Shown here: positions 3 to 3,910 of the stretch, piece by piece
How the letters are laid out: each line of letters begins with the position of its first letter
How positions within the stretch are numbered: position 1 is the stretch's first letter
Origin: Cyanobacteriota bacterium
Lineage (GTDB): Bacteria > Acidobacteriota > Vicinamibacteria > Vicinamibacterales > UBA2999
Assembly (NCBI GenBank): GCA_019752015.1
Contig: JAIEMQ010000023.1
Location: 1 to 64,000 of the forward strand
Reading direction: 5' to 3'
Length of the DNA stretch: 64,000 nt
Notes under the pieces: model-generated
Seen by the model: the letters and a program-made list of their open reading frames with translations, nothing else
What the model was told of the DNA's origin: nothing
Database searches by the model: none
Made by a program: the position numbers and the translations under genes

Positions 3-125
3 GCGACGTCGTACGTGTACTTCACATTCGTCATGGCCGACGCCGGCCGGCAAGCCAACCCTGAATTGCCGATTCAGTCCCAGGCTTCGGGCGAGCAGAC
101 TCGCGTCACGAGATGCGCGGGTTGA
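3..125 (+). CDS. possible C-terminal end of an unidentified protein (partial)
   Basis: An open frame enters from the left edge and runs 40 codons to a TGA at 123-125. About three quarters of its third codon positions are G or C, as in neighbouring genes, which favours real coding. The residues (SYVYFTFVMADAGRQ near the start) match no family I recognise. It would overlap the 3' end of the convergent helicase gene by about 20 bases. The gene start lies outside the window, so this call is weak. Confidence 0.25.
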   Translation, partial: ATSYVYFTFVMADAGRQANPELPIQSQASGEQTRVTRCAG

Positions 126-2940
126 CGATTGTCAGCAGCTTGGTGGGCGCGCCCGACCGGTGGCTGATTGCTCTCAGAATGCTGTCCAGGACAAGATCGA
201 GCTCCTTGCCCACATCCTCGGCGAGGAACCGCAGCACCAGGTAGCCGTTCTCCTGCAACACTTGATCTTTGCGGCGATCGCGCCGATAGGCGATCGGATC
301 GGCGAGGTGTTGAGCGCCATCCAGCTCTACGGCGACCCGCGCATCGGCGCAGAGCAGATCAACTTCCAGTCGGCCGAGACCATCGAAGGCGATCGGCAGA
401 TTGGCATTGAGGCGAAAGCGGTTCTTCGTCTCAGGTAGCGTCTGCAACCGTTGGAACAGGAAGCGTTCGGTGGCGCTGCGTGCGCGCTCGGCCCCTTCCG
501 CATCCGGAGGCAGCGGTTGCGCGACGTGGACGAAGAGCGTCGCGAGCGGCACATCAACCCCGTCGCGCACAAGCCGCCGGACGCTGGCGGCATAATCACG
601 CTTCCAGAGTGGCTGCGACGGCAGCGGCACGTCCGCTGGCCAGCCCGGAATCGCGCTGGCCGGGAGGAGCAACGTATAGCCGATGGCTTCGTAGCCCCGG
701 CATCGACGATCGAACATGCGCGCCAGCATCGGCACGTCGAGATCCGCGTAATCGTAGATGCGCACCTCGCGTTTGTCGTCGTAGAGGCGGTGTAAGCGTC
801 CGGCATATTGCGCGACGGTCCCTCGCCATGACACCGGAAGTGTCAGAAACAACGTGTCCAGCCGCGCATCGTCGAAACCTTCGCCGACGTACTTGCCCGT
901 CGCGAGCAACACGCGCGGCTTGTCACGCGGGATCGCGGCCAGACGCTCTGCGACGAGTCGTCGCTGCTTCTTCCCCATTCCCGCGCGCAACACCACCAGG
1001 TGCGATACCTTCGGGGCGAGCATCTGCTCGAGCCGATGCATGTGTTCGTTGCGCTCGGTAAGGACGAGCGGCGATCGGCCGGCGCAGACCGCATCGACGA
1101 CATCGTTCGCGATACGCCGGTTTCGCTGCTCGTCGTCGACGAGTTCCTGATAAAGCGTCTGGAACTCGGCCCGCTTATCTGCGTCAGGTGCGCGAAGCGG
1201 GCGGAAGGACGTCGGCTGAACGAGGACCAAATGGTCGAAGGGCCGGGTGGCAGCTTGAGCCTTCGCGTCCACTCGATATCGTACCGGCCCGCACTGCATG
1301 AGGATGATCGGGTGGTGACCGTCCTTGCGCGCGATGGTTGCCGACAGCCCCGTCACGAATCGTGCCTTAGCCTGCCGAGCGACACGTTCAAAGCTTTGTG
1401 CCGAGAGGTGGTGGCACTCGTCGACGACAAGGTGCCCGTACTGGCCGACGCAATCGTCGACGACGCCCTTCTTCACCAGACTCTGAATGACGGCGACGTC
1501 TACCTGTCCCGTCGGCCTTGTTCTGCCCCCGCCGATGCGGCCAATAGACGATGCCGGCAGATCGAGGAATGTCGAGAGCCGCTCGATCCATTGATCGAGG
1601 AGTTGTCGGCGATGCACCAGCACAAGTGTGTTTACACCTCGCTGCGCGATGAGCCAGGCGGCGACCACTGTCTTACCAAACGCCGTCGTCGCGGCGAGCA
1701 CACCGTTGTCATGAGCGAGCATCGCTTTCGCGGCGGCCTGTTGTTCGGCGCGAAGATCACCTCGGAACGTCGCCTGCAACGGCTGTCCGGCGTTCCGTTC
1801 GTCGCGAACGGCGACACGGACTCCCAGGTTGGACAGCGTGTCCTGGATCTCCTCGAGACATCCGCGCGGGATGCCGATGTGGTGCGGGTGGTCCTCGGCA
1901 CACGCAATCACGCGCGGCTTGTTGTAGGTCGACAGCCGCATCGCTTGCGCCTTGTAGAACTCTGGATTCTGAAACGCTGCGGTACGCAGCAGTCGATTGC
2001 GAAGCTCGGGCGACACTCCTTCCTTGGCGATGTAGACTTGATTGCCGAGCACGAGATCGATCGACGTGGGCAGTTCCCCGGTGAGCGCCGGCTCGCGTGA
2101 GCGTCGAGACGGTGGCGCGGTCCAGGGCTCATCGTCGCCGTCTTCCTGCGGCGGCAGCCGAACACCGAGGATGCGACCACGCCGTTCGGCGGTCTGCACG
2201 ATGCGTTCGGCTTGCAAGCGGTTAGTCCTGTGGAGTCCAGCAAGAAACGCCCACTGATCCGTCCACGGGACGAGACGTTCGTCGAGGAACACGCTGTTGC
2301 CCTTGTCGCGAGAGGCCTTCTGCAACGGCAGCGCAATCAGGTTGCCGAATCCACCTTGGGGAAGAGTGTCTTGGCTCGGGAAGAGGCGATCGTAAGAGTC
2401 GAAGCCAACGTCAGGGCGTCGCTCCATGGTTTCTGTGAGGAGGTGAGATCCAAGACGGCGCGCCAACGCTGCCGGAACGGCCTCCTCGAAGAAGAGCCAC
2501 ACGTGACCGCCGCGACCGGACCGCGACCGTTCGAGAGCGACGTTGACTTGTAATTGCGCGCACGTCTCGATGAACGCGGTCGCATCGTCTTGCCAGTTTG
2601 CCTTGTCGAAGTCGATCGCAAGAAACCAGCACATCTCATCCTGCAGCAGCGGGTACACGCCAGCCACGAACGGCTGCCCAGCGTCATCGTGTCCCGAGAG
2701 GTGCCAGCGAATGACATCATCGGTGACAGCGAGGAACCGACGATGTTGGCAGTCGGCGCACTTGATGCGCGGTTTCTCGCAGATCCCGCGCACCCACTCG
2801 TTTGCACAGGCAGGGGCGTAGCCTGAGCGGCCCGTTTTGCGACTCTCGAACCGACGAGGATAGACGTCTACTCGCCCGCGAAACAGAGACCGGAACAGCG
2901 CAATTTTCGCCTCGACAGGCGACGTGTGAGTGACAGACAC
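106..2940 (-). CDS. TOTE-type conflict protein: primase-like domain, SF2 helicase and C-terminal nuclease
   Basis: A 944-residue fusion. Residues 12-250 resemble the archaeo-eukaryotic primase domain of TOTE conflict systems: a four-cysteine zinc site (C45, C54, C61, C64), the acidic pair in LAIDFDK (D110, D112) and the GRGGHVW motif with H146. Residues 395-735 form a superfamily 2 helicase: Walker A TTAFGKT (418-424), DECHH (507-511), GLSAT (531-535), GEGFDD (686-691) and the QYAGRLHR arginine finger (711-718). Residues 840-925 look like a DUF559/Vsr-like nuclease (EVDLLCADARVAVELDG, then RRDRRKDQ and LRF). The GTG start has a GAAGGA ribosome site just upstream. Family knowledge links TOTE proteins to defence against invading DNA; the target here is unknown. 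It lies next to parDE and a tRNA, as mobile-island cargo often does. Confidence 0.85.
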   Translation of the reverse strand: MSVTHTSPVEAKIALFRSLFRGRVDVYPRRFESRKTGRSGYAPACANEWVRGICEKPRIKCADCQHRRFLAVTDDVIRWHLSGHDDAGQPFVAGVYPLLQDEMCWFLAIDFDKANWQDDATAFIETCAQLQVNVALERSRSGRGGHVWLFFEEAVPAALARRLGSHLLTETMERRPDVGFDSYDRLFPSQDTLPQGGFGNLIALPLQKASRDKGNSVFLDERLVPWTDQWAFLAGLHRTNRLQAERIVQTAERRGRILGVRLPPQEDGDDEPWTAPPSRRSREPALTGELPTSIDLVLGNQVYIAKEGVSPELRNRLLRTAAFQNPEFYKAQAMRLSTYNKPRVIACAEDHPHHIGIPRGCLEEIQDTLSNLGVRVAVRDERNAGQPLQATFRGDLRAEQQAAAKAMLAHDNGVLAATTAFGKTVVAAWLIAQRGVNTLVLVHRRQLLDQWIERLSTFLDLPASSIGRIGGGRTRPTGQVDVAVIQSLVKKGVVDDCVGQYGHLVVDECHHLSAQSFERVARQAKARFVTGLSATIARKDGHHPIILMQCGPVRYRVDAKAQAATRPFDHLVLVQPTSFRPLRAPDADKRAEFQTLYQELVDDEQRNRRIANDVVDAVCAGRSPLVLTERNEHMHRLEQMLAPKVSHLVVLRAGMGKKQRRLVAERLAAIPRDKPRVLLATGKYVGEGFDDARLDTLFLTLPVSWRGTVAQYAGRLHRLYDDKREVRIYDYADLDVPMLARMFDRRCRGYEAIGYTLLLPASAIPGWPADVPLPSQPLWKRDYAASVRRLVRDGVDVPLATLFVHVAQPLPPDAEGAERARSATERFLFQRLQTLPETKNRFRLNANLPIAFDGLGRLEVDLLCADARVAVELDGAQHLADPIAYRRDRRKDQVLQENGYLVLRFLAEDVGKELDLVLDSILRAISHRSGAPTKLLTIVNPRIS

Positions 2941-2980: not shown

Positions 2981-3286
2981 TCAGCCGATCTCCTTCAGAA
3001 TCTGAGCGACGTCGCGTGCGCCGTGCAGCACTGCGATGATGGTCAACGGCTCACTGGCAGGGTCGTATACCACCAGGTAGGAATAGACGCTCCAGAACTT
3101 TAGGGGACGTTCGGTCAGATCTTCACGCGAGTGGCCGATGCCCGGCCGCGACGCTATCAGCACAAACGCATCCTCGAGCGCGAGCACGACTTTCACTGCT
3201 GCGTCGATGTTGTCAGCGGCTATGAAGTCAGTGATCGCCTCGACATCCGCCTCGGCTCGCTCTGTAAGGCGGTACGTCTGGCTCAC
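2981..3286 (-). CDS. parE: RelE/ParE-family toxin
   Basis: A 101-residue protein with the ParE/RelE layout: helical N-terminus (AEADVEAITDFIAADN), then the strand region with ERPLKFWSVYSYLVVYDP and the terminal IIAVLHGARDV segment. ParE toxins poison DNA gyrase; RelE relatives cleave mRNA. The fold is clear but sequence alone does not decide the target. The GTG start overlaps the TGA stop of the upstream antitoxin gene (GTGA), so the two are translationally coupled, as is usual for type II toxin-antitoxin pairs. Confidence 0.85.
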   Translation of the reverse strand: MSQTYRLTERAEADVEAITDFIAADNIDAAVKVVLALEDAFVLIASRPGIGHSREDLTERPLKFWSVYSYLVVYDPASEPLTIIAVLHGARDVAQILKEIG

Positions 3287-3537
3287 GTGCGCTTCTTCGA
3301 TCGGGCCGTGAGCCGCTGCTTGATGCGCGCCATCGCTGCCGGTCCGTCGACGATGCGCCCGGCCTGCGCATCCAGCCAGCCGCGTTCAATCTGCTCCCGC
3401 CAGCGGAGCCGAATCTCGTCCTGTTCCTTCAAGAGACGAAGGCCTTCACGCACGACCTCGCTGGCGTTGTTGTACAGACCACTCTCGACTTTCTCGCCGA
3501 CAAAACGTTCCAGCTCAGGTGTCAACGATACATTCAT
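3283..3537 (-). CDS. parD: ParD-like ribbon-helix-helix antitoxin
   Basis: An 84-residue antitoxin with the ParD/CopG-type N-terminus (MNVSLTPELERFVGEKV, then NNASEVVREGLRLL), which forms the DNA-binding ribbon-helix-helix. The charged tail (QIERGWLDAQAGRI) is the expected toxin-wrapping part. I place the start at the ATG at 3537 because a GAGGA ribosome site sits five bases upstream; the TTG at 3549 is part of that site. It is first in the operon, and such proteins normally repress their own promoter. Confidence 0.85.
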   Translation of the reverse strand: MNVSLTPELERFVGEKVESGLYNNASEVVREGLRLLKEQDEIRLRWREQIERGWLDAQAGRIVDGPAAMARIKQRLTARSKKRT

Positions 3538-3672
3538 CGGATTCCTCAATAACAGAGTTTAGCAATGTTTGTCGATCGGACGCTAGCCCGTGAGCCTGCT
3601 CATGGAGACATTTTGGAGACGGTTAAAGCACGGTCAGTGCAGTCAAAGCGCGACCACCAGATAGCGCGACGA

Positions 3673-3690
3673 GAGGCAGGGATTTTCGAA
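3673..3690. repeat. partial copy of the tRNA-Gln 3' end
   Basis: Twelve bases (GAGGCAGGGATT) repeat exactly the T-arm/acceptor end of the tRNA at 3739-3750. After a two-base insertion four more bases (CGAA) also match. The copy lies 66 bases beyond the 3' end of the tRNA, where integrase-mediated insertions leave attachment-site duplicates. It may be a decayed attachment site, or chance. Confidence 0.4.
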
Positions 3691-3731: not shown

Positions 3732-3805
3732 TGGCTGGGAGGCAGGGATTCGAACCCCGATAAGCGGAGTCAGAGTCCGCTGTCCTACCGTTGAACGACC
3801 TCCCA
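3732..3805 (-). tRNA. tRNA-Gln (anticodon CTG)
   Basis: Reading the minus strand, a 7-bp acceptor stem (TGGGAGG with CCTCCCA) encloses a D arm, an anticodon stem GCGGA/TCCGC with loop CTCTGAC (anticodon CTG, reading CAG), and a T arm with GGTTCGAATCC. The discriminator is G, the first pair is T-A as typical of glutamine tRNAs, and CCA is encoded at 3732-3734. Confidence 0.95.
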
Positions 3806-3910
3806 GTAGGGTTGGAACCATCCATTATACGTAAGCGCTCGAAGACGCGGCAAGCCGGCGTTCGGTAACACTTACTTATGGCTCGACACGGCCGGCCGGT
3901 CCGATCCGCG

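Follow-up and report, generated by a model that had tools for sequence, protein, structure and literature searches.

Does a gene that joins a primase, a helicase and a nuclease in one chain serve to attack foreign DNA, to replicate the element that carries it, or to repair DNA? The question was raised by a gene of the window, by which we mean the whole stretch of 64,000 nucleotides (nt) analyzed here, from contig JAIEMQ010000023.1 of Cyanobacteriota bacterium (assembly GCA_019752015.1; placed by GTDB in Acidobacteriota, UBA2999). This fusion gene lies at 106..2940 on the minus strand. With a probability of roughly 55%, we favor the reading that its product is a nucleic-acid-attacking single-protein effector, most likely directed against invaders (plasmids or phages), and that the gene is cargo of small tRNA-gene islands, where an interchangeable toxin-antitoxin-type pair accompanies it. 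The main rivals are island replication and DNA repair.

Domains of the fusion protein

First, the reading frame and its domains were examined using the list of open reading frames, Pfam, an alignment and a structure model. The initial annotation had described a frame of 944 residues, which was found exactly where it had been placed, with a GTG start. Residues 12-245 (2206..2907, minus strand) matched the AEP-TOTE primase family PF22548 (E 1.2e-96; 323 bits against a cut-off of 27), in agreement with the primase segment proposed at residues 12-250. The helicase core of superfamily 2 (SF2), at about residues 395-762 (655..1758, minus strand), was recognized by the Pfam ResIII/DEAD models, with a ResIII match on residues 395-538 (E 1.2e-19), and by sequence matches in the PDB to XPBII (5tnu, E 1.8e-16) and RadD (E 0.0017). 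The nuclease domain at residues 821-925 (166..480, minus strand) matched DUF559, a family named in the initial annotation (E 7e-14; 52 bits against a cut-off of 20.6), and the endonuclease-like protein 3hrl (E 0.00086).

The conservation of single residues was determined in an alignment of 41 proteins, comprising the window's and 40 relatives that are 57-78% identical to it. Invariant in all 41 were C45, C54, C61 and C64 (2749..2808, minus strand); D110, D112, H146 and D184 in the primase domain; G422, K423, T424, D507, E508, C509, H510, Q711, G714, R715 and R718 in the helicase core; and E859, E872, D874, H878, D888, R889, K891 and D892 in the nuclease region. We assign these residues to the motifs typical of the families and presume that the four cysteines form a zinc site. 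The claim that all three domains have intact motifs was thus borne out by the Pfam matches and the invariant residues together.

We also analyzed an AlphaFold2 model of the whole protein (mean predicted local distance difference test score 79.9; predicted template modeling score 0.66). Residues 10-254 superposed on the Prim-Pol of CAPP (7nqd) with a Z score of 24.5 (2.2 Å over 196 residues, 26% identity), and residues 255-762 on XPB of TFIIH (7egb) with a Z score of 25.9 (4.4 Å over 420 residues). The XPB-like fold begins at about residue 255-262 of the model, and the best structural relatives of this middle part include RadD and XPB, the latter also in its archaeal complex with the nuclease Bax1. 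The structure prediction that the initial annotation had suggested returned a CAPP-like Prim-Pol at the N-terminus and an XPB-like middle. No nuclease chain appeared among the structural matches listed for the whole model, because one domain fills that list.

Taken together, the N-terminal part belongs to the AEP/Prim-Pol superfamily, the catalytic acidic residues, the motif II histidine and the fold all being present. The middle part, with its Walker A, DExH and motif VI residues in an XPB-type arrangement, is an XPB-like SF2 helicase. The C-terminal part is a DUF559/Vsr-type nuclease domain, predicted to be active, as indicated by the family match and the invariant E859, E872, D874, H878, D888 and K891.

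Distribution of the family and its tRNA islands

Relatives were collected from contigs of one genome per species by a pattern match (at least 586 stretches) followed by tblastn. At least 572 matched stretches encode a relative, and several of these stretches may share one gene. The best 80 of them are 80 distinct loci, mostly full-length and 56-79% identical, in Acidobacteriota, Planctomycetota, Verrucomicrobiota, Pseudomonadota and other phyla. The protein family is already named and its three-domain architecture is already common. The fusion had been presented as a stand-alone three-domain form; the single gene is real, but it is the rule in its clade rather than an exception.

The distribution was patchy. 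The primase domain was detected in 38 of the 193 genomes of the window's class (37 above the cut-off), 18 of which have an open frame of at least 900 codons around an unbroken match, while several others hold pieces only. The fusion gene was found in three of the nine genomes searched from the window's genus. Broken or partial copies were observed on contigs of three relatives (G056:C33, G041:C53 and G033:C62; G000 denotes the window's own genome, other G and L numbers the genomes and loci of relatives) and in other relatives, which suggests gain and loss. In a quick tree a copy from Betaproteobacteria nested inside the window's eight-row clade. One branch separated nuclease-bearing from nuclease-less rows in quick trees (Shimodaira-Hasegawa-like approximate likelihood ratio support 99), the first with 41 against 13 rows and 4 unlabeled, the second, built without the nuclease columns, with 41 against 11 and 3 unlabeled, two long-branched rows and one unlabeled row having been omitted.

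Homologues were also found on plasmids, in 209 of 72,556 records, 95 of which were typed as conjugative. The 30 best plasmid rows all stop at residue 757-769, that is, before the nuclease, and the 12 plasmid loci that were fetched carry nuclease-less homologues 39-61% identical over about 735-760 residues. The annotated settings among them differ from each other. On a Sphingobium and a Sinorhizobium plasmid (L132 3932-8283 and L134 4637-8274), a TniQ gene precedes the homologue; in L132 the two overlap by 4 bases, and TniB lies before TniQ. A nuclease-less homologue beside TniQ could be a transposon component or its cargo, and both are possible.

Next, the borders of the loci were examined in a scan of 92 loci with 29 tRNAs, 14 of the loci being new in that scan. 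In five loci an exact copy of 19-30 nt of a tRNA 3' end lies across the gene from the tRNA and closes an island of about 4.0-5.1 kilobases (kb). L021, L091 and L099 came from a first scan, and L170 was found later, before the 92-locus scan. Besides the fusion gene, two other genes were called in each closed island. These are DUF433 and a protein that has no Pfam match and is PIN-like by eye at tRNA-Ser(CGA) (L021); DUF6088 and AbiEii at tRNA-Met (L091); a DUF6036 nucleotidyltransferase and a protein matching MarR/PaaX below the cut-off at tRNA-Leu (L099); DUF433 and DUF5615 at tRNA-Ser(GGA) in the window's genus (L170, genome G001); and DUF433 and PIN_10 at tRNA-Asp (L192, genome G064), where the match to the window protein ends at residue 755 and the nuclease is lacking. 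Judged by family matches and appearance, the two accompanying genes resemble a toxin-antitoxin pair.

None of the accompanying genes in the five islands matched an integrase, and an integrase gene or a piece of one lies just outside the repeats of L091 and L170. The closed islands would therefore not be elements with their own integrase inside the repeats. As a control, copies of tRNA 5' ends were sought and found for five tRNAs in four loci. Two of these tRNAs are adjacent in L051; in L078 and L195 the copy and its tRNA, at most 100 nt apart, share one side of the gene; and in L192 a copy lies across the gene, beside the 3' copy. A tRNA-Gly called inside the gene at L190 was taken as spurious. 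At L192 2054-17466, tandem segments bounded by tRNA-Asp were seen, one with the primase-helicase and PIN_10/DUF433 and the next with ABC-transporter-like genes (named by eye).

The genes beside the fusion gene were then compared between loci. In the window, a ParE-type toxin gene of 101 codons (2981..3286, minus strand; Pfam ParE_toxin, E 6.6e-14) and a ParD-type antitoxin gene (3283..3549, minus strand, starting at TTG 3549 or ATG 3537; Pfam ParD, E 2.3e-7; NCBIfam TIGR02606, E 1e-19) stand between the fusion gene and tRNA-Gln(CTG) (3732..3805, minus strand). The pair and the tRNA adjoin the gene as the initial annotation said, and they turn out to be its meaningful neighbors. The neighbor and tRNA counts were made on 83 loci, of which 76 came from genome contigs, after removal of four near-identical ones. 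Genes were called by a codon-based caller, and 118 upstream and 118 downstream proteins were compared with 118 far control proteins drawn randomly from 161, using the 25 commonest families of each of the upstream and downstream sets. Toxin-antitoxin families upstream were AbiEii (7), ParE (3), ParD (2), PIN (2) and AbiEi_4 (2), counts that include the window's own ParE and ParD; downstream they were DUF433 (3), AbiEii (2), DUF5615 (2), Phd (2) and PIN (2). None of these families reached two among the far control proteins. A conserved partner gene was rejected, as apart from the gene's own pieces (five loci) no cluster of neighbors occurred in more than four loci. Homologues were thus not limited to housekeeping settings, tRNA islands and toxin-antitoxin-type neighbors being among their contexts.

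The density of tRNAs near the gene was about five times that further out. In 76 loci, the sequence up to 1.3 kb from the gene (169.6 kb in total) contained 11 tRNA sites and the 535.2 kb beyond contained 7 (P = 9e-4), a P value that is indicative only, because the limit was picked after the distances had been seen and the loci are related rather than independent. Over five distance bins, which do not depend on that limit, the density fell from 9.9 to 4.0, 2.4, 1.5 and 0.5 per 100 kb. T-arm pieces outside full tRNAs followed the same trend, with six in the two inner bins and five in the three outer ones.

The junction at tRNA-Gln in the window

The contig begins at base 1 of the window, which leaves just 105 bases of sequence downstream of the fusion gene, and only the upstream side could be inspected for an island end. 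A 12-nt exact repeat of the 3' part of tRNA-Gln was found at 3673..3684 (minus strand), its sole other copy in the 64 kb lying inside the tRNA. We presume that it is an att remnant. The end of this partial tRNA copy, which was extrapolated, lies 45 nt before a 19-nt junction signature (3603..3621, minus strand), and the intact tRNA lies 111 nt away.

In relatives tRNA-Gln(CTG) is an integration site: 6 of the 14 loci fetched contain additional copies of its 3' end, with no more than 2 mismatches in 20. Of these six, L161-L164 had been fetched because a second copy was hinted at, and L158 and L172 had not been so chosen. In these six loci one to four extra copies were present in tandem. A 200-residue protein with paired cysteines, named by eye, was seen in L158, L161, L164, L172, L243 and L246, and an ERCC4-nuclease-like neighbor of it, also named by eye, in L161, L164 and L172.

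We also determined where else the signature occurs. It was found 43 times in 19 of 43 genomes of the family, against none for the reversed control; in G000 there are four sites at up to one mismatch and five at up to two, the others including C1:145835, 247321 and 255772. Spacing was analyzed at 34 distinct sites in 33 fetched loci, which do not cover all of the 43 sites. At 13 of the 34 a T-arm on the strand of the signature is present in the 400 nt upstream (21 without), compared with 56 of 1700 random positions; nine of the 34 have it at 54-55 nt, which puts the tRNA end 44-45 nt away. In 6 of the 33 loci (L209, L211, L215, L220, L224 and L229) and in L160, all or part of a tyrosine-integrase gene lies over or beside the signature, and where the gene is present the signature overlaps its 3' end; short integrase pieces occur at L162 and L244 too. 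At the window's site, at the other G000 sites and at the majority of the loci examined, no integrase was in view. The signature may represent leftover coding sequence, a site to which the integrase binds, or both, since it lies at the coding 3' end of the integrase gene where that gene is present.

From these sequence features, we interpret the window as holding the tRNA-side end of an island that lacks an integrase and is built like the closed ones. Between a GNAT gene and tRNA-Gln, at 3856-3896, the window also contains a 33-55 nt stretch that recurs in several other G000 contigs, three of which start about 42 nt away from it, and in G018 and other relatives. This stretch is possibly the end of a mobile element.

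Function of the enzyme and comparison with known systems

A motor, a nuclease and a primer-maker, intact across phyla and encoded by a patchy gene, are consistent with an enzyme that attacks invading DNA in a restriction-like way. A widespread family that sometimes sits with toxin-antitoxin pairs in tRNA islands is probably an anti-invader weapon spreading between species. In such a mechanism the XPB-like motor would load on the invader's duplex or forked DNA and open it, the Prim-Pol domain would engage the exposed single strand, either sensing it or laying primers or short products, and the motor-coupled nuclease at the C-terminus would cut. The toxin-antitoxin pair would stabilize the island, which would be moved by the integrase of another element or would have lost its own.

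A more elaborate model is put forward tentatively, and we would not expect all of it to hold. Here the island would be a minimal modular element composed of the conserved primase-translocase-nuclease gene, an exchangeable toxin-antitoxin-type pair and repeats of the tRNA 3' end, without an integrase and moved in trans via the junction signature. The enzyme would attack competing DNA and aid the persistence of the island, and the pair would be swapped while the enzyme is kept, across tRNA-Ser, -Met, -Leu, -Asp and, in the window, -Gln.

Several observations weigh against the anti-invader reading or its island setting. We infer the defense role from domains and setting. The GC content of the fusion gene (63.1%) is ordinary for the window, 19 of 115 stretches being equally low or lower, and compositional oddity was rejected. 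The window's island is not closed, its far end lying beyond base 1, where the contig starts. When the tRNA 3' end was aligned with gaps to the window's spacer, the match was weak, 30 of 2000 shuffles scoring as high; the argument for an att remnant is built on the exact 12-nt repeat together with the 45-nt spacing. The genome itself was rejected as the source of the integrase, the closest match in G000 being 28% identical. Closed islands account for only 5 of the 92 loci and 1 of the 14 new ones (L192), and at most of the 92 loci a tRNA was out of view. Eight of the 11 nearby tRNAs turn their 3' end towards the gene, which is not significant (P = 0.11). The toxin-antitoxin families vary by place and may be generic island neighbors, and for L021 and L099 a pair is recognized by resemblance. 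PADLOC models matched proteins near the gene (AbiE, SNF2-type helicase, methyltransferase and JetD among others) and far control proteins (PD-T4-6 and type I specificity among others), which was not a clear contrast.

The foremost rival, which we regard as unlikely, is a replication or mobilization enzyme of an integrative element, in which, once the island is excised, the primase would initiate its replication, the helicase unwind it and the nuclease nick it. Primase-helicases of satellites and plasmids serve replication or mobilization, and tRNA-bounded islands of similarly small size, the plasmid homologues and the two homologues behind TniQ all agree with such a role. However, the motor belongs with XPB-like SF2 translocases rather than with SF3 or DnaB-type replicative helicases, the five closed islands lack an integrase among their called genes, and the fetched plasmid settings have little in common as annotated. 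Among 621 matching phage records none covered 80% of the protein, and one locus was found on viral contigs.

A DNA repair or damage-tolerance enzyme, in which an XPB-Bax1-like helicase-nuclease would be joined to a primase-polymerase that fills gaps, ranks behind replication and is rather improbable. It would account for the structural nearness of the middle part to XPB, XPB-Bax1 and RadD and for the matches to XPBII and RadD, but not for a gene that was not found in six of the nine genus genomes, occurs in fragments, is placed across phyla and sits in islands.

The initial annotation had called the protein TOTE-type. TOTE stands for TPR-OB-TBP-Effector and denotes systems with TPR, OB and TBP components, according to PMC12458937. 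The part of that claim that concerns the primase family stood, whereas the part that concerns the system was not supported. TBP (Pfam PF00352) was found in none of the 297 genomes of the phylum, the window's included, although 4 of 14 control genomes, all archaeal, scored; this search sees only matches to the Pfam model, and a divergent TBP or one in missing sequence would escape it. TPR, OB and TBP families were not among the 25 commonest families upstream or downstream in the 83 loci, and TBP was listed in none of 11 annotated plasmid neighborhoods (12 fetched; the gene table is incomplete). On this evidence the protein appears to be in the AEP-TOTE primase family yet not in a TOTE system. 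An effector of a true TOTE system whose other genes are elsewhere or past the contig end has very little probability, although the very strong family match and a downstream side that lies off the contig speak for it.

Least probable of all is a CRISPR-associated Prim-Pol variant aiding spacer acquisition: CAPP is the nearest solved Prim-Pol and Cas-associated PrimPol the best PADLOC model for the window protein, but the NCBIfam CAPP equivalog model gave 64.5 bits against a cut-off of 200, a simple scan found no CRISPR-like array in 84 records, no cas family was among the 25 commonest neighbor families on either side, and the CRISPR link was rejected.

Among the open-licence papers searched, none treating a primase-helicase-nuclease fusion was found by title or abstract start, nor any account of such a protein encoded on small tRNA islands together with interchangeable pairs of the toxin-antitoxin type, nor any test of the primase's part in a presumed conflict enzyme. 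The fusion gene is a compact one-protein target for probing that part. Its companion is a changing toxin-antitoxin-type pair in a small tRNA island rather than a fixed operon gene, which provides defined units with both ends known that can be cloned and tested. The 19-nt signature could act as a probe for integrase-less islands.

Finally, the protein and its islands were compared with known systems. The plasmid primase-helicases, annotated as 'DEAD/DEAH box helicase', are alike over about 735-760 residues but lack the C-terminal nuclease. TOTE systems share the primase family and have a predicted role in conflict, whereas the window protein unites three activities in one chain and the phylum sample contains no TBP. 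CAPP (7nqd, 7nqe, 7nqf and 7p9j) shares the Prim-Pol fold; in contrast, the window protein is fused to a helicase and a nuclease, and a CRISPR array was not found near its relatives. XPB, archaeal XPB-Bax1 and RadD share the SF2 core and the XPB-like part preceding it, but the window protein is fused to a Prim-Pol and a DUF559 nuclease and is patchy in its presence. Integrase-less, cis-mobilizable islands are a known kind of element. Like the closed islands described here, they have direct repeats at both ends and no integrase inside, whereas mobilization of the present islands in trans is presumed.

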